Shown here one piece after another: positions 47,706 through 59,295 of a stretch of 64,000 nt of DNA (the first letter of the stretch is position 1; each line of letters opens with the position of its first letter). The notes beneath the pieces were generated by a model that was given only the letters and a program-made list of their open reading frames with translations, made no database searches and was not told where the DNA came from. A program made the position numbers and the translations under genes. Source of the DNA: Roseithermus sacchariphilus (GTDB lineage: Bacteria; Bacteroidota; Rhodothermia; Rhodothermales; MEBIC09517); assembly GCA_003285105.1 (NCBI GenBank), contig CP030158.1, forward strand, positions 4,140,449 to 4,204,448. The letters run 5' to 3'.

Positions 47706-47892
47706 TCAAGCGGCCTGTCTGGCGGCATCAATTGGTTCGCCATCGACGAAGGTCACTCCGTGAAGGATCATCATAATCGTCTTGTAGCCGTCTAGTCGGT
47801 GCCAGTGCTTTTCGGCTTCTCGCACCAACTTGTAGACCATCGACAGGGCTGCTGCTCTGGATCCGCAGCCCTTCGTCTGCCTGGTACGGTGC
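47706..47892 (-). pseudogene. IS256-family transposase, C-terminal fragment
   Basis: Encodes the last 60 or so residues of a mutator-type transposase (HRTRQTKGCGSRAAALSMVY, then a tail ending DGEPIDAARQAA). It is the missing end of the gene at 58024-59295: joining the two across one copy of GCAC restores TVRH-RTRQTKG in frame. The apparent small ORF beginning in the IS copy is fortuitous. Confidence 0.85.
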
Positions 47893-47921
47893 TGGAATGC
47901 CCCCATTTTTGGTACCAGGGG

Positions 47922-48838
47922 CTATGTTAGTGCAGGCACCGGTTCGTGCTTCTGTTCTTTGACCTTGTGGTCGTTGTTGAACTGTGGAGATGGAGGCAAC
48001 GGGGCTGCCCCCATCTCCACAGCCTGATCGCCGACCGCGTCGCGCTCGGCGGTGGCATAGGCCGACGGCGTCTGGTAGCCCAGCGCGCTGTGCGGGCGGT
48101 ACGTGTTGTACTTCCGTCGATACTGCTCGCTGAGCACCTCGGCCTCCAGCACGGTTGCGAACAGCTCCCGGTCGAGCAGTTCGTTCCGGAACGTCGCATT
48201 GAACGACTCAATATAGCCGTTCTGCCACGGCGCACCCGGCTCGACGTAGCGCGTCTCGACCTGCACCGCCGCCAGGTGCGTCCGCAGCGCCTCGGCAATG
48301 AACTCCGGGCCGTTGTCCATGCGCACATGCGCCGGCGTTCCATGCTCAGCGAAGAGGCCCTCCAGCACTTCAGTTACACGCTCGGCGGTGATACTGCGCC
48401 CCACCTCGATCCGATGACACTCCCGCGTGTACTCGTCGAGTACGGGCATGAACTTCACCTGACGACCGTCCTCGGTCGTGTCGAATCGGTCGTGTCGAAG
48501 AGGAAGTCGATGCTCCAGACGTGGTTCGGGCAGGTCGCCTTCAGCCGCGTGCAGCCATGCTCGCTGCGGCCCAACCGGCGTCGTTTGCGCTGTCGCTGTG
48601 GCACCTGCAGCCCGGCCTGCTTCCACAGACGGTGCACGCGCTCTGGGTTGACGTGCCAGCCGTCACGGCGCAGAAGCCGCGTGATCATGCGGTAGCCCGC
48701 ACGTGGGTTCGCTTCGGCCAGTTGGTGCATACGTTTGGTCAAGGGACGATCCTGCTGCGGTTTCTTCGAACAGTAGCGCTGCGTCGAACGCGGCTGTTGG
48801 AGGGCTCGGCAAGCCCGCCGCTCGCTGACACCGAGCAC
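47922..48838 (-). pseudogene. IS3-family transposase orfB, copy A, frameshifted
   Basis: DDE integrase-type transposase read in two frames. The upstream part (VLGVSERRACRALQQ to NHVWSIDFLFDTT, carrying the first catalytic Asp) and the downstream part (RMDNGPEF with the second Asp, WQNGYIESFNATFRNELLD with the Glu) are separated by an exact 14-base tandem duplication (48472-48485 and 48486-48499). Removing one copy restores VWSIDFLFDTTEDGRQVKFM. The same lesion is in copy B. Confidence 0.85.
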
Positions 48839-49179
48839 GTCCTGGACGTGGCGTACGGCATCGCGGCGACGCGACGGGCTCTATGGGAGATCTCATGAGA
48901 TCCCCCCTTTCCCCTGGCGACCTCCTTGAGGATGTCGATGTCGAGAGCTTGCTCAGCGACGAGCTTCTTCAAGCGGGCATTCTCCTTCTCCAGCTCTTTG
49001 AGGCGTTTAACCTCACTGCGATCCATGCCGCCGTACTGCTTCTTCCAGCGATAGATGCTCTGCTCGGAGACGCCGACGTGTTTGGCGGCCTCGGCGATGG
49101 TTGCGCCCTCAGCGGTGAGAGCCTCGACGCGGCGGAGCTTGGTGACAATCTGTTCAGGGGTGTGTTTTTGCTTCTTCAT
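48739..49179 (-). CDS. IS3-family transposase orfA, copy A
   Basis: 146 residues. Residues 1-50 form a helix-turn-helix (MKKQKHTPEQIVTKLRRVEA, AAKHVGVSEQSIYRWKKQYG) followed by a leucine-zipper-like helix (KRLKELEKENARLKKLVAEQ). The part after residue 95 overlaps orfB in another frame and is probably not meaningful protein in the -1 frameshifted product. Confidence 0.8.
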   Translation of the reverse strand: MKKQKHTPEQIVTKLRRVEALTAEGATIAEAAKHVGVSEQSIYRWKKQYGGMDRSEVKRLKELEKENARLKKLVAEQALDIDILKEVARGKGGSHEISHRARRVAAMPYATSRTCSVSASGGLAEPSNSRVRRSATVRRNRSRIVP

Positions 49180-49263
49180 TGTACTGCGTAATTGGGGTGC
49201 AGCACAAATCGAAGATTCCCGCAGGAAACATAAGGCCTGGATCAGTTTTCTGGGGGCAATCCA

Positions 49264-49391
49264 TGGGCGGCCGGCCAAGCGGCCGGTTCTGATTCCCTCC
49301 CGCGGCCGAACCCGCTACGCAGCGCACGCTGCGCGGCTTGCTGCGCTGCGGGCCCGGCCCTGCCAGCGTAACAGGGTAACAGCGCTCAGCG
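49264..49391 (-). other. DGR-like downstream region: hairpins after the kinase stop codon
   Basis: 128 bases between the kinase stop and IS copy A. Minus strand begins with TGTTACCCTGTTACGCTGG, then holds two inverted repeats, CGCAGCGCACGCTGCG (49318-49333) and CCGGCCAAGCGGCCGG (49271-49286). DGR targets need GC-rich and hairpin elements just past the variable region. If the cargo was circular the second hairpin would be followed, after CCGCCCA, by the T7 run now at 56662-56668, giving a terminator-like structure. Confidence 0.4.
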
Positions 49392-51464
49392 CTACTCCGC
49401 GCTCCTCACCAGACGAAAACCGAGAAGGCTGTTGCGAGCGCCCAGCGAAGACCTGCTGCGAGACGCCGAACGCAGGCTGAAGGCATTGCCGCCCCAACTG
49501 CCGCCACGTTTGACCCGGGCCGCGCCGGAACCCGGGCCTGCGGGGTCCACACTCGGGCTGCTGCTGTAGTACGTGCTCGAATACCAGTCCTGAACCCATT
49601 CCCACACGTTCCCGTGCATGTCATACAGACCCCACGCGTTCGGACGCTTCTGACCCACCGGGTGAGTAGTCCCACCCGAGTTACTCCTGTACCACGCATA
49701 GTCCCCTAACTGGCTCTCGTCATTACCGAACGAGTACTTCGTCGTCGTGCCGGCACGGGCCGCGTATTCCCACTCCGCCTCCGTGGGCAGGCGGTAGGCC
49801 GTCGTCCCCTCCCTCACGTTCAGCGCCTCGATGAACGCCTGCACGTTGTCCCACGAAACCTCCTCCACCGGGCAGTCCCCGCCGCACTCGTCGAAGTAGC
49901 TCGGGTTGCGCCCCATCACCGCCTCCCACTGCCGCTGCGTCACCTCGTATTTGCCCATGTAGAAGTCCTTCGTCAGCGTCACCGTGTGCACCGGGCTTTG
50001 GTCGATACCCCCCCCGCCCTGGATGTCGCCCATCTGGAACGTGCCGGCGGGGATGCGGATGAACGCCATGCCCAGGCTGTTGGTGAAGGTCTTGCCGGTG
50101 GACTGTGCAATACGCCGCTGCTCCGCCAACTCCGCCTCTCGACGCCGCTGCTGCTCGGCCAACGCCTCCGCCTGACGCCGCCGCTGCTCCGCCAACTCCG
50201 CCTCTCGACGCCGCTGCTGCTCGGCCAACGCCTCCGCCTCTCGCCGCTGCTCCGCCTCACGGTTCGCTACCCACGAACCGTAACCGATCAAAATCAAAGA
50301 CACCACCAGCGCGCCCAACAACCACCAGCGTCGCTCGTGTATCCTCCCCTGACCTGCCCATCCCCCCGAAAAAACCTCGTCGCCCCCCCCCCCGACTGTC
50401 CTTTCTCCAGTCGATACACCCGCATTCCAACGGCCGGCCTCTCGCTCCCCAACTCCGCCACCCACCATCGCGCGCTCACGCTCTTCCTCCACAACCACCG
50501 CCGCGCTCAGCAGTGCCTGAAACGCTTCCGCCGTCTCCAATCGGTCCTCCACTCGGACCGCCAACGAACGCATCACCGCCGCGCTCACGCTCGACGACAA
50601 ACCTCCTACACTTTGATCCGGAGGCTCGAGACGATCCTCCACGATACGCTCCGCCGCGTCCTGCGGCACACGTCCCGTCAACATCCGGTAGAGCGTCGCT
50701 CCACAACCGTACACGTCCGTCCACGGACCCTGGCGGCCCCGTCGATGATACTGCTCATACGGCGCATATCCCGGCGTCATCACCACCGACAAACTCCGGC
50801 TGCGCTCCCCCATCGCCATGCGTGCCGCCCCAAAATCAATCAGCACCGGACGGCCCTCCCGCGTCAGGTACACGTTCGAGGGCTTGATGTCCCGGTGCAG
50901 ATAACCCCGACCATGCACCTCCCGCAACCCATCGAGCAGGCGAAGCATGATCTCCACGGCCAGACGCTCGGCAATGCGTCCCTCCGGCTGCTCCTTCAGG
51001 TACTGATCCAGCGTCTTCCCCTCGTAGTACTCCATCACCAGGTACGCCGTACCGTTGCTCTCGAAAAAGTTCAGCACCCGTACGATGTTCGCGTGGTCGA
51101 ACTGTGCCAGCGCCTGCGCCTCCTGGAGAAATCGTGCCTTGCCGTAGCTGAAAAGATCGCTCTCGTCTCGGGAGTAGAGCACCACCGAGCGCCCGTCCGT
51201 GTGCCGGCCGGCCAGGTCGCGCGGCAGGTACTCCTTCACCGCCACGCGCTTGTGCAGGCGCAGGTCGAGCGCCAGGTACGTGATGCCGAAGCCGCCGGGC
51301 TTGCCCAGCACGTGGCCTATCGCGTAGCGCTCGTCGAGCAGCGTGCCCAGCGGCAGCACCAGCGGGTTGCGCGCCAGACCGGCGTGGTAGCCACAGTGAG
51401 GGCATTCGGCAGCGGTGCCACGCTCGAGGAAACAACCCGGACACAGGGCCTCGATATCGGGCAT
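49392..51464 (-). CDS. Zn-ribbon Ser/Thr kinase - TM - coiled coil - FGE/SUMF1 fusion, probable DGR target
   Basis: 690 residues. Zinc ribbon (CPGC 8-11, CPHC 21-24). Ser/Thr kinase about 47-320 with Lys77 (VAVKEYL), HRDIKPSN at 190-197 and DFG at 211-213, so likely active. Membrane helix about 379-400. Charged coiled coil 401-452 built from a repeated EALAEQQRRREAELAEQRRR unit. FGE-sulfatase/C-type-lectin fold 460-690 (IPAGTFQMGD, RLPTEAEWEYAARAG, DMHGNVWEWVQDW, RGGSW, GFRLVR). The usual FGE catalytic Cys pair is not evident; this fold is the common scaffold of DGR variable proteins. Kinase inside, FGE domain outside would make a sensor kinase. Confidence 0.85.
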   Translation of the reverse strand: MPDIEALCPGCFLERGTAAECPHCGYHAGLARNPLVLPLGTLLDERYAIGHVLGKPGGFGITYLALDLRLHKRVAVKEYLPRDLAGRHTDGRSVVLYSRDESDLFSYGKARFLQEAQALAQFDHANIVRVLNFFESNGTAYLVMEYYEGKTLDQYLKEQPEGRIAERLAVEIMLRLLDGLREVHGRGYLHRDIKPSNVYLTREGRPVLIDFGAARMAMGERSRSLSVVMTPGYAPYEQYHRRGRQGPWTDVYGCGATLYRMLTGRVPQDAAERIVEDRLEPPDQSVGGLSSSVSAAVMRSLAVRVEDRLETAEAFQALLSAAVVVEEERERAMVGGGVGEREAGRWNAGVSTGERTVGGGGDEVFSGGWAGQGRIHERRWWLLGALVVSLILIGYGSWVANREAEQRREAEALAEQQRRREAELAEQRRRQAEALAEQQRRREAELAEQRRIAQSTGKTFTNSLGMAFIRIPAGTFQMGDIQGGGGIDQSPVHTVTLTKDFYMGKYEVTQRQWEAVMGRNPSYFDECGGDCPVEEVSWDNVQAFIEALNVREGTTAYRLPTEAEWEYAARAGTTTKYSFGNDESQLGDYAWYRSNSGGTTHPVGQKRPNAWGLYDMHGNVWEWVQDWYSSTYYSSSPSVDPAGPGSGAARVKRGGSWGGNAFSLRSASRSRSSLGARNSLLGFRLVRSAE
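49395..49517 (-). other. Candidate DGR variable region
   Basis: The final 41 codons (residues 650-690) keep the invariant frame RGGSW...LRSA.R...GFRLVR. The interposed codons are GGC GGC AAT, TTC AGC, TCT, AGC, TCT, GCT, AAC AGC CTT CTC: nearly all NNY, as expected if AAY codons of a template were changed at their A positions. Invariant codons between them end freely in G (CTG, TCG, GCG). AGG and TCG are exceptions. Confidence 0.65.
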
Positions 51465-51522: not shown

Positions 51523-52980
51523 CTATCGTCTGGTAGCCCCTCCGGGAAGTGTAATCCGTAGCTCCGTACGACCGATCAAAATACGATCGCCATCTTCGAG
51601 TCGATACGAGCCACTTATGGGTACACCATTTACATACGTGCCGTTCATGGAATCTAAATCACGTAAATATACCCCCCCATCCTTTTTGACCAGCACACTA
51701 TTCTTTCGGGAAGCCTCTTCATCGTCAGGAAACGCGACGTCACAGTCACCACGACTACGTCCCAGTATAATCTGGTCATGGAGTGACACATCATAGACCT
51801 CACCAGACCGCGCTCCTCCTACAATGGTCAGCCGAATGGGCATTCCTTCTGGCTTTTTCTTCGGTGGAATCGGTTGTACGATCGGGGGCAGTTCGCCAAG
51901 ATTCAACCTGTTGCGACGTCTGTAAATGAACACCCCGGACCCCGTTGCAAGCCCTACCAGAAGAAGACCAGCGAGCGTATACACCCACCATGGGTAGTGC
52001 AAAAGAAATTCGAAGGGTCCATCCGGAACGCTAGTACCCGTGTTTGTCGCTACCGGTCCTGCATACATATGGATGTTTGCTTCGTCAAACATCGATATCC
52101 CCCCGGCAGTGATGCCAATTCGCAGGGGCCGTTCGCTTCCGTCTGTTGCACAGGCGGCACAGGTCAGCCGAACCACCCATACATCCCGAATATGCTCTCG
52201 GAGCGTCTCGTATACATCTGAAAGCGGGTTTTGCCCGGCTTCGAAATATTTCCCGCCCGAGGCCCGGGCAAAAGAGCCCAGCTTGCGAAGCGCTTCCTCT
52301 TTCTTTTCCGTACGAGGTGGATTGAAAAGGCCAATTGCATAGATCGGCATGTTGCTATTATGGATGCGGTCCATGACCTCTTCTCTCATCATGCCTCCCG
52401 GAAAGTCGTCCATGCCGTCGGACAGCACAACGATAGCGCGTCGGTCGGGTAACGCTTCGTCGGTGCGCCGCCCCAGTTCCAGGGCCTTCGCCAATCCAAG
52501 GTGAAGCTGCGTCTTGTTATCTGTTGTTTCAAACCCTTCGATGATCTGGCGTAGTTGCGCCTTATCCCCGGTAAAGTCCTGCATGAGCACCACCCGTTCG
52601 CCGAACGTGATTATTGCTGCCCGATCAACCGGCTCCATGGCCTCTACCCACCCCAGAAGCGCCTCCCTCATCTGATTAAGCTGGGCCCGCCGGAGCGATT
52701 TCGACTTATCCACAAGAAAAACATAACCGATTCCTTCTTTGGCTTCCCGAAAGGGCTGTACACTCACTACTTTTGCGGAATCCGCTCCTACCAGGGCGGT
52801 TATCTGTTCAGGATGGATGTCTACTGCGGGCCTCTCGAGGGCATCACGTACGTCAAGGTAGACGGTGATCTCGGGCAGTACCGTTCTGGTCTGGCTGATG
52901 CGAAGTGTCGCAATCTGTTGGGCGTGTGCCCAAGAGGCGCTGGAGAGAAGACCCAGCATAAACAGGAGATAGATACGCAT
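51523..52980 (-). CDS. VWA-FHA membrane protein
   Basis: 485 residues. Sec signal peptide (1-20, ending AHAQQ). A beta-rich segment, then a von Willebrand A domain with MIDAS DKSKS at residues 91-95 and a second acidic loop LSDGMDDF. Membrane helix about 332-354 (WWVYTLAGLLLVGLATGSGVF). Cytoplasmic FHA domain about 378-480 with ILGRSRGDCDVAF and LRDLDSMNGTYVNG, a phosphothreonine-binding pocket. It ends 58 bases before the kinase start on the same strand. Inferred role: extracytoplasmic ligand or adhesion sensing relayed by phospho-dependent binding. Confidence 0.85.
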   Translation of the reverse strand: MRIYLLFMLGLLSSASWAHAQQIATLRISQTRTVLPEITVYLDVRDALERPAVDIHPEQITALVGADSAKVVSVQPFREAKEGIGYVFLVDKSKSLRRAQLNQMREALLGWVEAMEPVDRAAIITFGERVVLMQDFTGDKAQLRQIIEGFETTDNKTQLHLGLAKALELGRRTDEALPDRRAIVVLSDGMDDFPGGMMREEVMDRIHNSNMPIYAIGLFNPPRTEKKEEALRKLGSFARASGGKYFEAGQNPLSDVYETLREHIRDVWVVRLTCAACATDGSERPLRIGITAGGISMFDEANIHMYAGPVATNTGTSVPDGPFEFLLHYPWWVYTLAGLLLVGLATGSGVFIYRRRNRLNLGELPPIVQPIPPKKKPEGMPIRLTIVGGARSGEVYDVSLHDQIILGRSRGDCDVAFPDDEEASRKNSVLVKKDGGVYLRDLDSMNGTYVNGVPISGSYRLEDGDRILIGRTELRITLPGGATRR

Positions 52981-52989
52981 GGTGAGAGC

Positions 52990-53559
52990 TTACCACTGGA
53001 AGGTGTCCCCACAGAATGGGATGAACATCAATTTGGTCTGCCCCATTTCTATGATGTCGTGTTGTTTCAACGAGGCAGGCTGGTAGAGCGCTTCCTGGTT
53101 CAAATACACCAGTTCTCTGCCCTCTCCGGGAAGCAAGGTAAACGCATTTTTCTTGGGGTCGTAAGCCAGTGCTGCATGATTTTCCCGAGATATGGCGTCA
53201 TCTCCGGCGATGCATATATCCATATGCCGGGCACGTCCAACTACATTTCGACCACTACGGATGCGGTAATCACGTCCTTTCTCGGCTCCCTCTATACAGA
53301 CCAGCCATCCGACCACGGGGTCGATGCCTTTTTCCTTGACCATCAACCCGACGGTACGCAGATCCTCATCTCGCTGTCCTCCTTTCTCACCTGCGACCCG
53401 GGGTCGGGTCAACGCCTCCTCGCCATAAGAGGCTTTCTCTACCGTTTGAGTATGCGCGCGGGTAGGGCCGGGATCAAAGTTGGAGATACCACAATAAGGG
53501 CAACTCGTGTACTTTTTTGAGTCAAAGGCGTGCCCGCGCTCACATCGCTGCATGGCCAT
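52990..53559 (-). CDS. Zn-ribbon FHA protein
   Basis: 189 residues. N-terminal zinc-finger-like CERGHAFDSKKYTSCPYC, a linker with several Thr (possible kinase targets, TQTVEK), and a C-terminal FHA domain (NVVGRARHMDICIAGDD, ISRENHAALAYD). The typical FHA Arg and Ser-Arg-x-His are present. Starts 9 bases before the VWA-FHA gene, so translationally close. G+C is clearly lower than in host genes. Confidence 0.82.
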   Translation of the reverse strand: MAMQRCERGHAFDSKKYTSCPYCGISNFDPGPTRAHTQTVEKASYGEEALTRPRVAGEKGGQRDEDLRTVGLMVKEKGIDPVVGWLVCIEGAEKGRDYRIRSGRNVVGRARHMDICIAGDDAISRENHAALAYDPKKNAFTLLPGEGRELVYLNQEALYQPASLKQHDIIEMGQTKLMFIPFCGDTFQW

Positions 53560-53617: not shown

Positions 53618-54298
53618 TTAGATAGCCTCAAACATCGAGACCAACAAAAGAAAGAAGAACACACCAAGAGCCAAGTGCACATACAAAAGAGTGATGAGGC
53701 ACCCACGCCCGGGAGGAGAATGAGCGATGATCTTCTTTGTGCGATTGGCATCGGATAAAAAAGCTATATTGGCAATCAAGCCTATGAAGAAGAAGCCGAT
53801 ATAGTACAAAAAAAGACAAAGAAAGGCCTTGCCGGTGTAAGACTTGTTGAGGTGGATGGCATAGCCCAGTTCGCTCCCCAGTCCCTTGTGGGGTAACGCC
53901 TGAGAATCCGGCTTTTGAAGCTGCAGGGCGGACTCATCGGGGAGCGTTGGCTTCCGGTGATGAGGTCCTTGCCTGCTCACTACAACCGCTGAGGTGCTTG
54001 GGTTTAAAGATTGAACGGTTGACCATTCCAGCGGTACCTCACCTGCAAGTAATATTTGAGAGGAAGAATCTATGTGGATACGCACACCGGGCGGAATGCG
54101 CTTCCCATTGATGAAGGTTCCATTCGTTGATCCAAGATCTTCAAGCCATACCTCTTCACCATCAAAGACCAGTTTACAGTGCCTCCGAGAAAGGCGATCG
54201 AAAGCCATTGGAAAGTCGCACTGTGCCGATGTACCAATGATCACGTCCTTCATATCCGATACCTGGCAGGCAGAATCTTTTGCCTCTAGCCTGAGCAA
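53618..54298 (-). CDS. FHA protein with two C-terminal membrane helices
   Basis: 226 residues. FHA domain at residues 15-95 (VIIGTSAQCDFPMAF, LSRRHCKLVF, EDLGSTNGTFING); IGTS replaces the usual GRS so the first phosphate-contact Arg is missing. A linker of 45 residues precedes two helices (LCLFLYYIGFFFIGLIANIA and LITLLYVHLALGVFFFLLL). The 155-base gap to the PP2C gene holds a possible TATAATTCG element and no ORF. AT-rich relative to the host. Confidence 0.8.
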   Translation of the reverse strand: MLRLEAKDSACQVSDMKDVIIGTSAQCDFPMAFDRLSRRHCKLVFDGEEVWLEDLGSTNGTFINGKRIPPGVRIHIDSSSQILLAGEVPLEWSTVQSLNPSTSAVVVSRQGPHHRKPTLPDESALQLQKPDSQALPHKGLGSELGYAIHLNKSYTGKAFLCLFLYYIGFFFIGLIANIAFLSDANRTKKIIAHSPPGRGCLITLLYVHLALGVFFFLLLVSMFEAI

Positions 54299-54453: not shown

Positions 54454-55233
54454 TTACTTCTCCCGGTTACGACGGGTCAACCAGAAGCGAAAACGGTTTC
54501 GCTTTTCTTCACAGCAGACTGCTATTGCGGTATAGTTGTCGAACTCTCCGATGGCACGTTCTCTGATCTTATTTTCCATTTTCTGCATCCAGGCTTTGGG
54601 CGTGCCAGCCTCGATGCAGGCCTTCTCCATTTCCGGTTCCGTAATGTGTTCCCAGAAACCATCTGTACACAGTAGAAACGCATCGTGCGGCTCAATCGGC
54701 ACAGGCTCCTTCCGCACCTCGGGCTGCCAGTGATCCTCCTGTCCCATCACCCGCAGCAAGCGGTTCCGGTCTGTATGAAACCGGATCTCCTCTGGTGCAA
54801 TATCGCCGGCGGCAACCAGCACCTGTGGCACACTATGATCTTTCGTTTGAAAAATGATTCTGCCCTTTCGGAAATGGTATAGTCGCGAATCGCCGACGTG
54901 CGCCCACAAAGCAGAATGCTGATCGCATAAGAGAAGCACCAGCGTCGTCCGCATCGAGGCGAGCAGAGGATCTTCTGCCTGGCGCTGCACCACTGCCATC
55001 TGGGCGGCATCCAGATGGGCCTCTATAGCAGCAGGAGATAGTACCGGATTATTCCGAAACGATGTGAGCACCTGCTCCACCGCAAGGCGAGAGGCCACCT
55101 CTCCACCCCGGTGCCCCCCCAGTCCGTCGGCAACAACCCAGCATGCAACGTCCTCGAGGAGAACGTAGTCGCACGTATCCTGGTTTGCTTTGCGTCCCCC
55201 GGTACTGGTCAGGCTAAACGTCTTAAAGGTCAT
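54454..55233 (-). CDS. PP2C-family Ser/Thr phosphatase
   Basis: 259 residues. PPM/PP2C metal motifs intact: RKANQDTCDY, VVADGLGGHRGGEVAS, HVGDSRLYHF, LLCTDGFWEH, and FDNYTAIAV at the C-terminus. Cytoplasmic. Presumed to reverse phosphorylation by the kinase at 49392. It begins 35 bases after the next phosphatase gene ends. Confidence 0.9.
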   Translation of the reverse strand: MTFKTFSLTSTGGRKANQDTCDYVLLEDVACWVVADGLGGHRGGEVASRLAVEQVLTSFRNNPVLSPAAIEAHLDAAQMAVVQRQAEDPLLASMRTTLVLLLCDQHSALWAHVGDSRLYHFRKGRIIFQTKDHSVPQVLVAAGDIAPEEIRFHTDRNRLLRVMGQEDHWQPEVRKEPVPIEPHDAFLLCTDGFWEHITEPEMEKACIEAGTPKAWMQKMENKIRERAIGEFDNYTAIAVCCEEKRNRFRFWLTRRNREK

Positions 55234-55268: not shown

Positions 55269-56642
55269 TCAGGCACAGTCTATTATCATCACAGTTATGT
55301 TGTCCTGGTGCCGTTTACCCTTTTCCAGTGCACACCGGACCAGTGCCTCCGCGGCAGTCTGGGCGTCCTGATCCAGCGACTGCAACATCTCCGCTTCCAG
55401 CAGGCTTCCGTACAACCCATCGCTGCACAACAGGACCCGATCTCCGGCCTGAAGTGAGTGCGGTTCCTCACATTGGTCAACGGCAATCAGCTTGGGAAGG
55501 CCCAGGTAGCTCGTCAGGGCATGGCGGTCCGGATGCTGATCGGCTTCCTCCTGCGTGATCTTACCCTCCGCCACCTCCTTTTCCAGTTCGTGTCGGTACA
55601 CGTGATCCCGGGTCAGTAGTGTCAGTTCTTGATCTCGAATCCGGTATATACGGCTGTCCCCGACCGAAAGCCAGTATAGGTCTTTGTCATGAAAGACAGC
55701 GGCTGCCAGTGTAGTCCCGACCGCTCCCTCCTTGTCAGCATCACCGGCAAGCTCCAGCACGGCTCGATTGGCCTTGCCCAGTGCCCGATTCAGTCGTTGC
55801 ATGATACTACCTTCTGCCCCTTGATCGTGATAGCCGGCCAGGAAGGCCTTTACAGCCGCATTACTCGCCTCGGCACCCAGTTCCATACCGCCCATACCAT
55901 CGGCAACCACAGCGAGAATTCCATACTTCGCTACAAAGTCACGGTTTTCGGGATCAGAGAAACCAAAGGCATCCTGCTGTTGCGCTCTCTCACCGATGTG
56001 TTGTGCATTGCCGATACGCAGGCTGCCCGACGGCAATCGCACGAGAAAAGAAGCCCTGTTCTGCCGCCTTTGTTTTGATCGTTTCTTATACATAAAAGCG
56101 ACAACAAAAAGCCCAACCACGAGGGCAATTCCGCCCGTCTGGATCCACCACGGCAGACGTTCCAACCGACCACGAATCCGGTCCAATGTCGTTTGTTCAT
56201 CCGGCATGGAAGACCCCGGCACATGCAGCGAATCTCTCTGCAACAGATTCGCTGCCGATGTATCGCGAACTGCCTGCACCGTGTCCGGCAATACCTGTTG
56301 CAGCCATTCTTCTGCCGGGGCGATGTAAATTCCAATGCCAGACTGCTTGTAGTACAAGTGCCCCGTTTCCGGTGGGCCTCCCTTTCGGGTAAACGAACTA
56401 TAACAACAAGATAAAGAGAGCAACAACACCAGTATCTGCCGAAGCAACAAGACCGACTGGAAAGGAGCAACGCTCCTGAAGAGTGTGCCCAACGGCAGCC
56501 GGTCGCGGGGCCGCCCCTGCCGCTCGAAGTACTGCTGCGCCACGTCATGGACCTGCTTGTCCCTGATGAACGCCTGCAGCGGCCCATCATCGAAACCCTG
56601 GCACCGCTCCTCGAACGGCAGCGTGATCGCCTTCACCTGCAT
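55269..56642 (-). CDS. Membrane PP2C phosphatase fused at its N-terminus to a foreign fragment
   Basis: 457 residues as read. Residues 1 to about 55 (MQVKAITLPFEERCQGFDDG...) differ in base composition (GC-rich) and look like the start of another protein, by recollection the HRDC-type accessory protein of DGR cassettes. From about residue 58 (DNA near 56470) the sequence becomes AT-richer: hydrophobic LLLRQILVLLLSLSCC (signal peptide or lipobox), an extracytoplasmic part, a membrane helix about 168-186, then PP2C about 208-457 with VADGMGGMELGAEAS, VGDSRIYR, LCSDGLYG and HQDNITVMI. The native N-terminus of the phosphatase has probably been lost. Confidence 0.75.
   Translation of the reverse strand: MQVKAITLPFEERCQGFDDGPLQAFIRDKQVHDVAQQYFERQGRPRDRLPLGTLFRSVAPFQSVLLLRQILVLLLSLSCCYSSFTRKGGPPETGHLYYKQSGIGIYIAPAEEWLQQVLPDTVQAVRDTSAANLLQRDSLHVPGSSMPDEQTTLDRIRGRLERLPWWIQTGGIALVVGLFVVAFMYKKRSKQRRQNRASFLVRLPSGSLRIGNAQHIGERAQQQDAFGFSDPENRDFVAKYGILAVVADGMGGMELGAEASNAAVKAFLAGYHDQGAEGSIMQRLNRALGKANRAVLELAGDADKEGAVGTTLAAAVFHDKDLYWLSVGDSRIYRIRDQELTLLTRDHVYRHELEKEVAEGKITQEEADQHPDRHALTSYLGLPKLIAVDQCEEPHSLQAGDRVLLCSDGLYGSLLEAEMLQSLDQDAQTAAEALVRCALEKGKRHQDNITVMIIDCA
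56471..56642 (-). pseudogene. Truncated N-terminus resembling a DGR accessory (HRDC-type) protein
   Basis: About 55 residues beginning MQVKAITLPFEERCQGFDDG and containing LQAFIRDKQVHDVAQQYFER. The pattern (K.x.TL.F...GFDD..L..F..DKEV......F) is what I recall from small HRDC-domain proteins encoded next to DGR reverse transcriptases. The C-terminal HRDC part is absent. GGAGCAACGCTCC, a short palindrome, sits at the junction (56463-56475). Confidence 0.45.
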
Positions 56643-56661: not shown

Positions 56662-56668
56662 AAAAAAA
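56662..56668 (-). other. T7 tract at the inner edge of IS copy B
   Basis: Seven A on the plus strand (T on minus) immediately before the shared TGGG. On a closed circle it would follow the hairpin at 49271-49286 and precede the accessory-like ATG at 56642 by 19 bases. Confidence 0.5.
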
Positions 56669-56701
56669 TGGGTGGAATGCCCCCATTTTTGGTACCAGGG
56701 G

Positions 56702-57618
56702 CTATGTTAGTGCAGGCACCGGTTCGTGCTTCTGTTCTTTGACCTTGTGGTCGTTGTTGAACTGTGGAGATGGAGGCAACGGGGCTGACCCCATCTCCAC
56801 AGCCTGATCGCCGACCGCGTCGCGCTCGGCGGTGGCATAGGCCGACGGCGTCTGGTAGCCCAGCGCGCTGTGCGGGCGGTACGTGTTGTACTTCCGTCGA
56901 TACTGCTCGCTGAGCACCTCGGCCTCCAGCACGGTTGCGAACAGCTCCCGGTCGAGCAGTTCGTTCCGGAACGTCGCATTGAACGACTCAATATAGCCGT
57001 TCTGCCACGGCGCACCCGGCTCGACGTAGCGCGTCTCGACCTGCACCGCCGCCAGGTGCGTCCGCAGCGCCTCGGCAATGAACTCCGGGCCGTTGTCCAT
57101 GCGCACATGCGCCGGCGTTCCATGCTCAGCGAAGAGGCCCTCCAGCACTTCAGTTACACGCTCGGCGGTGATACTGCGCCCCACCTCGATCCGATGACAC
57201 TCCCGCGTGTACTCGTCGAGTACGGGCATGAACTTCACCTGACGACCGTCCTCGGTCGTGTCGAATCGGTCGTGTCGAAGAGGAAGTCGATGCTCCAGAC
57301 GTGGTTCGGGCAGGTCGCCTTCAGCCGCGTGCAGCCATGCTCGCTGCGGCCCAACCGGCGTCGTTTGCGCTGTCGCTGTGGCACCTGCAGCCCGGCCTGC
57401 TTCCACAGACGGTGCACGCGCTCTGGGTTGACGTGCCAGCCGTCACGGCGCAGAAGCCGCGTGATCATGCGGTAGCCCGCACGTGGGTTCGCTTCGGCCA
57501 GTTGGTGCATACGTTTGGTCAAGGGACGATCCTGCTGCGGTTTCTTCGAACAGTAGCGCTGCGTCGAACGCGGCTGTTGGAGGGCTCGGCAAGCCCGCCG
57601 CTCGCTGACACCGAGCAC
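56702..57618 (-). pseudogene. IS3-family transposase orfB, copy B, frameshifted
   Basis: Same two-frame structure as copy A, with the identical 14-base tandem duplication (57252-57265 and 57266-57279) that breaks the gene between the first and second catalytic Asp. One amino-acid difference from copy A near the C-terminus (EMGSAP versus EMGAAP). DDE residues otherwise intact. Confidence 0.85.
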
Positions 57619-57959
57619 GTCCTGGACGTGGCGTACGGCATCGCGGCGACGCGACGGGCTCTATGGGAGATCTCATGAGATCCCCCCTTTCCCCTGGCGA
57701 CCTCCTTGAGGATGTCGATGTCGAGAGCTTGCTCAGCGACGAGCTTCTTCAAGCGGGCATTCTCCTTCTCCAGCTCTTTGAGGCGTTTAACCTCACTGCG
57801 ATCCATGCCGCCGTACTGCTTCTTCCAGCGATAGATGCTCTGCTCGGAGACGCCGACGTGTTTGGCGGCCTCGGCGATGGTCGCGCCCTCAGCGGTGAGA
57901 GCCTCGACGCGGCGGAGCTTGGTGACGATCTGCTCAGAGGTGTGTTTTTGCTTCTTCAT
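57519..57959 (-). CDS. IS3-family transposase orfA, copy B
   Basis: 146 residues, identical to copy A except near residue 8 (TSEQ versus TPEQ). Helix-turn-helix followed by a leucine-zipper-like helix, as expected for OrfA of the IS407 group. Confidence 0.8.
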   Translation of the reverse strand: MKKQKHTSEQIVTKLRRVEALTAEGATIAEAAKHVGVSEQSIYRWKKQYGGMDRSEVKRLKELEKENARLKKLVAEQALDIDILKEVARGKGGSHEISHRARRVAAMPYATSRTCSVSASGGLAEPSNSRVRRSATVRRNRSRIVP

Positions 57960-58023
57960 TGTGCTGCGTGGTTGGGGTGCAGCACTAACATAAGGCCTGG
58001 ATCAGTTTTCTGGAGGCAATCCA

Positions 58024-59295
58024 GTGCCGCACTGTTGCGAAGGTCGATTCGATCGGGTTCGTCGTCCGCAGATGCTTCCAGTGTGCCGCAGGGAAGTCGT
58101 AGAAGGTCAGCAGCACGTCTTGATCCTTGCGCAGGCACGCGACGGCCTTCGCGTACCGGTCGCCGTAGAGCGCCTCGAAGTCATCGAGCGCCTCGAGGGC
58201 CTCACGGCGCGTGGGCGCCTGGTAGATCGCCTTCAGCTTCTGCTTGGCTACGCCCTGGAGCGACTTGGGCATCTTGTCGAGCACGTTGGCCGTCTTGTGT
58301 ACCCAGCACCGCTGATGGCGTGTACTCGGGAAGACCTCCTCGAGAGCCGGCCAGAAGCCAAGGGCGCCGTCTGCGATGGCCAGCAGAGGCGCTTTCTTGA
58401 GCCCACGCCGCTTCAAGTCGAGCAACATCTCCTTCCAGGAGAGCTTGCTTTCTCGCTCGCCATCGAGCAGCCCTACCAGTTCCTTGCGACCGTCGGCGGT
58501 TGCGCCCATCAAGACCAGCATACAAGGTCGCTCGGGTGTCAGGCGCACGTTGAAGTAGATGCCGTCCGCCCAGAGGTAGACGTAGTGCTTCTGCGACAGG
58601 TCGCGCCGGCTCCAGGCCTCGAACTCGGCCTGCCAGGCCTCTTTCAACCGGACGATGTTGGTCGGCGAGAGTCCCGAGGCCCCTTCGCCGAGTATGGCCG
58701 TGAGCGCTTCGCTGAAGTCTCCCGTCGAGACCCCTTTGAGGTAGAGCACCGGGATCAGCGCATCGAGCGAGGGACTACGTCGCAGATAGCGAGGCAAAAT
58801 CGAGCTGGTGAAGTGGTGCCCTTCCCGGCGATCGTGGACCCGCGGCCGCTCAATGACAAGCGGTCCGGCACCCGTGACGATCTCACGAGCCGGCTGGCGA
58901 CCGTTGCGTACGACGAGGCGGTGGCCATGCTCATCGCGCTGATCACGGTGGCGCTCAATGTAGGCTGCTACCTCGTCTTCAATGGCCTTCTCCAGCAGTT
59001 GCTGGGCACCTCGGCGCACGATCTCGTCGAGAACCGACCGGGCCTCTTCCTGCGCGTCTTCCTGCGTACGGGCCTCTTCCTGCGTACGGGCCTCTTCCTG
59101 CGTACGGGCCTCTTCCTGCGTACGGGCCTCTTCCTGCGTACGGGCCTCTTCCTGCGTACGGGCCTCTTCCTGCGTACGGGCCTCTTCCTGCGTACGGGCC
59201 TCTTCCTGCGTACGGGCCTCTTCCTGCGTACGGGCCTCTTCCTGCGTACGGGCCTCTTCCTTCTTAAGCGAAAGAACAGTAGCTTGGTTGTGCAT
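58024..59295 (-). pseudogene. IS256-family transposase, N-terminal and catalytic part
   Basis: 424 codons up to TVRH, where IS copy B begins. Residues 13-78 are eleven EEARTQ repeats; after them VLDEIVRRGAQQLLEKAIED starts the usual mutator-transposase N-terminus. DDE residues: ADGIYFNVRL (Asp), AIADGALGFW (Asp), TTNPIESTFATVR (Glu). With the fragment at 47706-47892 the restored protein would be 484 residues. Now truncated by the composite unit, so inactive. Confidence 0.88.
59061..59258 (-). repeat. In-frame 18-bp tandem repeat, 11 copies
   Basis: CCTGCGTACGGGCCTCTT repeated exactly 11 times (198 bp) within the IS256 transposase gene, encoding (EEARTQ)11. Copies appear identical, implying recent slippage expansion. 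Confidence 0.95.

Follow-up and report, generated by a model that had tools for sequence, protein, structure and literature searches.

A probable DGR remnant bracketed by two IS3-family copies, with an orphan kinase-FGE target and an accessory stub fused to a PP2C phosphatase

The window analysed here, a 64-kb stretch of DNA, contains a 7.4-kb segment of minus-strand signalling genes that is bracketed by two IS3-family copies and has no megablast match in plasmids. At one end of the segment lies a gene for a Ser/Thr kinase with a C-terminal FGE-sulfatase (C-type-lectin-like) domain (49392-51464; Pkinase E 3e-34, FGE-sulfatase E 5.4e-49). Next to it are genes for a VWA-FHA protein (51523-52980; VWA E 3.5e-14, FHA E 1.7e-15), two FHA proteins (52990-53559, FHA E 3.2e-6; 53618-54298, FHA E 6.5e-17) and a second PP2C phosphatase (54454-55233; NF033484 E 8.5e-50). 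The other end is occupied by a 457-codon ORF (55269-56642), which opens with a minus-strand ATG at 56642, begins MQVKAITLPFEERCQGFDDGPLQAFIRDKQVHDVAQQYFERQGRP, and joins an accessory stub in frame to a membrane-segment-containing, Stp1-type PP2C (PP2C_2 E 9.3e-17, NF033484 E 2.5e-49); the match to both PP2C profiles begins at residue ~214. A preliminary description of this DNA had proposed looking for intact loci with the full order PP2C, FHA, VWA, kinase-FGE, accessory, RT, and this order was found in none of 394 genomes of the phylum and 114 of the order.

The same description had recognized a short reading frame from the ATG downstream of a T7 tract and had likened its start to HRDC-type accessory proteins of DGR cassettes. 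The frame is present at 56642 on the minus strand, and protein comparison bears out the resemblance for codons 1-45 (56508-56642, minus strand). The stub is 50% identical over 44 residues to an accessory encoded by G250, a genome of the same order (BLOSUM62 score 115), and scores 94 against the accessory of the Prosthecochloris aestuarii plasmid pPAES01; 1000 shuffles scored no higher than 41. Seventeen positions are invariant among the stub and these two intact accessories, the conserved N-terminal region thus being present, and in a search of one genome the relative of the stub was found with E 6.5e-9. G250 is the sole other genome among the 394 of the phylum and 114 of the order that encodes such a relative. 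The first 55 residues matched nothing in Pfam, NCBIfam or PHROGs, the homology being detected by protein comparison with intact accessories alone, and the HRDC domain has no match anywhere in the fused ORF. On these comparisons, residues 1-45 are identified as the N-terminal part of a DGR accessory protein of the HRDC type whose HRDC part is absent. The accessory start was thus correctly recognized, but its extent of about 55 residues was not: homology ends at residue 45 (base ~56508), the residues downstream are unrelated, and the frame, which had been said to break off, stays open into the phosphatase. Third-position G+C is 0.91 in the stub, 0.78-0.84 in the kinase gene and 0.54-0.62 in the genes from PP2C to VWA; a drop in base composition does occur along the fused ORF, at about residue 76 and not, as had been claimed, at about residue 55.

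The intact cassettes used for comparison show what follows such a start. The G250 accessory has 177 residues with an HRDC domain (PF00570, E 3.5e-20), and its locus runs from an FGE target through the HRDC accessory, Avd (103.5 bits, cut-off 80), RT and the template repeat to two more FGE targets; the G250 targets carry nSTAND1 and TIR domains. Differences between the template repeat and the variable repeats fall at template A in 16 of 17, 17 of 18 and 16 of 17 cases, and this concentration identifies the G250 locus as a real DGR. By annotation, pPAES01 has the same order (formylglycine-generating enzyme, HRDC, Avd, RNA-directed DNA polymerase), which shows that HRDC-accessory DGRs occur on plasmids. 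An HRDC accessory has also been reported in Treponema denticola DGRs (PMC4891356). Viral contigs scanned with the accessory and the G250 RT yielded no relatives. A scan of genome contigs showed an accessory-like start behind an FGE gene in one Latescibacteria genome (L039, 10001-10150).

The 3' segment of the kinase gene (49404-49514, minus strand) resembles a variable repeat and aligns with the G250 template repeat, and where the G250 template has Asn codons the kinase segment mostly encodes other residues; this assignment was made by resemblance to the G250 template repeat alone, as proof of A-specific change would take a template repeat of the kinase's own. No match to RVT_1 was found in the complete 4.8-Mb genome by a search that detected the G250 RT as a positive control. 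An A-aware pattern of 96 nt, which tolerates a template A at nearly every position, was run against the complete genome with up to three mismatches and matched only the kinase gene itself. With neither RVT_1 nor a matching template repeat in the genome, the kinase-FGE gene is, judged from its sequence, an orphan DGR target, in agreement with the earlier claim that RT and template are gone. A second FGE gene of this genome (G000:C1:2448172-2448897; L037 3444-4901) was considered as a further orphan target and rejected. The gene has a variable-repeat-like C-terminus and shares 68% identity with the FGE domain of the kinase. G008 has identical residues at the variable-like positions, indicating that they are not being diversified, and no hairpin-T element follows the gene.

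The two IS3-family copies, B (47893-49263, 1371 bp) and A (56673-58023, 1351 bp), both on the minus strand and therefore in direct orientation, share the ends TGGAATGCC...GGCAATCCA, which were placed where the inverted repeats lie and where the copies cease to be identical. They are the only full copies of this element in the genome. Over 1208 bases, copies A and B show a single mismatch; the last ~160 bases hold nine substitutions as well as a 20-bp indel. The integrase frame of either copy is disrupted by an identical 14-bp tandem duplication (at 48472 in copy B and 57252 in copy A); in a related IS of G215 this frame is open. The two flanks of a given copy do not match. Instead, the outer flanks match each other (GTGC at 47889-47892 on the left and 58024-58027 on the right), as do the inner ones (TGGG at 49264-49267 on the kinase side and 56669-56672 on the accessory side). 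The outer flanks belong to an IS256-family transposase gene, whose 5' part lies at 58024-59295 (minus strand; NF033543 E 3.7e-93) and whose 3' part lies at 47706-47892 (minus strand). Removal of the segment and of one GTGC yields an uninterrupted frame of 497 codons that continues across the empty site, and its C-terminal stretch reaches position 337/338 of the NF033543 profile (94.6 bits), compared with 312 (79 bits) in the interrupted gene. The restored frame indicates that a resident IS had sat in the IS256 gene. Crossed target-site duplications of this kind are what recombination between a resident IS (GTGC) and the single IS of a circle (TGGG) should leave behind. The pattern of differences between the copies would fit recombination of two IS variants accompanied by a long conversion tract; the divergence of the last ~160 bp needs such a tract and does not by itself demonstrate a crossover. 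The 5' part of the IS256 gene also contains an 18-bp unit repeated about 12 times (59036-59266), which encodes an (ARTQEE)n stretch.

The inner join was examined in the same way. G+C-rich inverted repeats follow the kinase stop (49264-49391), among them the hairpin CCGGCC-GCTT-GGCCGG (49271-49286, minus strand), and a T7 tract (56662-56668, minus strand) lies upstream of the accessory ATG, as the preliminary description had noted. In the present linear sequence neither half forms an element alone. When the inner flanks are rejoined across the IS and one TGGG is removed, a spacer of 154 nt separates the kinase stop from the accessory ATG, with TTACCCTGTTAC near its start, followed by the hairpin, 7 nt, T7 and the ATG. 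Only in this arrangement, and not in the present linear order, does the accessory stand directly downstream of the target, and the G+C-rich kinase and stub are contiguous on the circle. The intact target-accessory spacers, of 204 nt (G250) and 249 nt (pPAES01), contain TTACC blocks and a hairpin of 6-7 bp with T6 after 7-12 bases. The earlier claim that the stub follows the kinase on a circle is thus supported by three independent signs: the crossed duplications, the restored IS256 frame and the rejoined hairpin and T-tract.

A hairpin and T-tract are likewise found behind the targets of Anabaena, Fischerella and Nostoc plasmid DGRs; behind the third G250 target the hairpin is present and the T-tract absent. 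No such element follows the DGR-less FGE genes (L037 of this genome and that of G008), and a hairpin followed by a T-tract has one other instance on the two strands of the 64-kb window. A MAFFT alignment of the three spacers aligned the 5' TTACC block and left the hairpins unaligned, and the hairpins were therefore compared by direct search. Hairpin stability was discarded as evidence, since the hairpins did not exceed composition-matched shuffles in this respect (z -1.1). As a further observation, a hairpin with T5-8 within 4-12 nt occurs behind FGE-type DGR targets at L004 (9610-9813), L034 (7752-8000), L083, L084 and L086. The element behind FGE-type targets may serve as a terminator, as a homing element or in both roles. 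In the BPP-1 DGR, a hairpin just 3' of the variable repeat is required for efficient homing (PMC3240598). In sequence, the present hairpin resembles the hairpin/cruciform described behind DGR variable repeats in being G+C-rich, with a stem of 6-8 bp, and in lying shortly downstream of the target; it differs in that its loop is not GRNA and that a T-tract follows (PMC3240598).

The identity of the stub, the crossed duplications, the restored outer and inner joins and a genome in which no RT or template repeat was detected together make it probable that the segment is the remnant of a DGR with a kinase-FGE target, which was integrated as a circle by way of the IS and whose machinery has been deleted. 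The ancestral locus would have comprised the kinase gene, a spacer with hairpin and T-tract, an HRDC-type accessory and, presumably, Avd, RT and a template repeat downstream. An IS3-family element would have inserted between the hairpin and the T-tract, duplicating TGGG, and a circle that bore the locus together with this IS, whether excised or a plasmid, would then have recombined with the resident copy of the same IS in the IS256 gene (GTGC). The circle would have opened inside the IS, which would leave the kinase at one extremity of the segment and the accessory at the other, as they are now. The HRDC domain, Avd, RT and template would have been lost through a deletion that began at accessory codon ~45 and ended shortly before the PP2C gene. 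It would have left the kinase-FGE target frozen and the accessory stub joined in frame to a phosphatase. The circle may have been excised as a molecule of 8.8 kb, or a larger plasmid may have integrated and been trimmed later; the order of events is likewise a reconstruction. The preliminary description had proposed that a deletion or recombination removing RT and template formed the circle; their absence from the genome is borne out, and the deletion may have either accompanied circle formation or followed integration.

The inner duplications match over 4 bp only, and the near-identical 3' regions of two targets could share the same 4 bp. This leaves some room for a linear history without a circle, in which one DGR target preceded the accessory gene and a second, the kinase, came after it, the IS inserted at the equivalent place behind both, an internal deletion joined codon 45 to the PP2C gene, and the resulting composite transposon entered the IS256 gene. 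In the intact loci (G250 and pPAES01), targets indeed lie to either side of the RT and their 3' hairpins are nearly identical, so that equal inner 4-mers might come from homologous sites, and the outer GTGC fits composite transposition equally well. However, two insertions at exactly equivalent positions would be required of an IS whose other site, GTGC in the IS256 gene, has no similar context. The integrase frame, moreover, is broken in both copies, although this may have arisen later, and with one event more than the circle the linear history is less parsimonious; we regard it as unlikely. Equal inner and equal outer duplications are also predicted by a tandem duplication in a donor chromosome, with its junction between accessory codon 45 and PP2C, after which the IS-bracketed unit transposed as a composite element. 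The IS copies should then be recent duplicates, yet they differ by the 20-bp indel and ten substitutions, nine of them clustered in the last ~160 bp, which makes this history very improbable.

Both of these histories accept the accessory origin of the stub. If the 45 residues were instead the native N-terminus of the PP2C, resembling an accessory by chance, a frame open through both parts would be expected, and such a frame is present. Against this stand the alignment score, far above the shuffle maximum, and the third-position G+C of the stub, which is like that of the kinase and unlike that of the PP2C. Comparison with native PP2C N-termini, which the preliminary description had suggested as a check, also argues against it: in three genomes of the same order (G131, G034 and G096) the PP2C homologues begin directly with the phosphatase domain and have no stub-like N-terminus, and the stub is therefore not that of a native PP2C. 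We consider a chance likeness extremely unlikely. The preferred reading thus remains a DGR remnant integrated as a circle.

A decayed DGR at this locus is a new instance in which well-documented things are combined, and not a new system. The locus shares with pPAES01 an FGE-type target, a spacer with hairpin and T-tract, and an accessory of the same N-terminal sequence family, and differs from it in an accessory truncated at codon 45, in the lack of Avd, RT and template, and in a target with a kinase domain. In Thiohalocapsa PB-PSB1, mobile elements degrade DGR loci, and kinase and vWA domains occur among these loci (PMC10907252). Machinery has been lost through mobile elements there as well, but PB-PSB1 keeps complete loci in its genome, whereas a search of the present genome yielded no RT and its scars speak for integration of a circle IS by IS. 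In Burkholderia thailandensis, IS3-family composite elements form circles with one IS (PMC6350997). As in this IS2-like megacircle, or an IS26 translocatable unit, two directly repeated IS3-family copies bracket a segment that would behave as a circle with one IS; the megacircle was seen by PCR, with a bracket of ~210 kb, while the present circle is deduced from its scars, and neither copy has an intact integrase frame.

The scars at this locus allow one to read, base by base, how a DGR may lose its reverse transcriptase and leave an orphan target, which can be recognized afterwards through the split hairpin-T element and the accessory stub. These two marks suggest a practical search for orphan DGR targets in genomes without a DGR reverse transcriptase. 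It is conceivable, though doubtful, that DGR targets spread without their machinery as IS-bracketed circles, the frozen kinase-sensor being carried as a ready-made receptor with its PP2C, FHA and VWA genes and the accessory start driving translation of the phosphatase. The segment adds a case in which a DGR is associated with signalling genes of the kinase, PP2C, FHA and VWA kinds. Separately, genomes of the same order (L036 and L072) have a native cluster of FHA, FHA, kinase without FGE, VWA-FHA, PP2C, FHA and PP2C genes, related in content to the segment and different in gene order.
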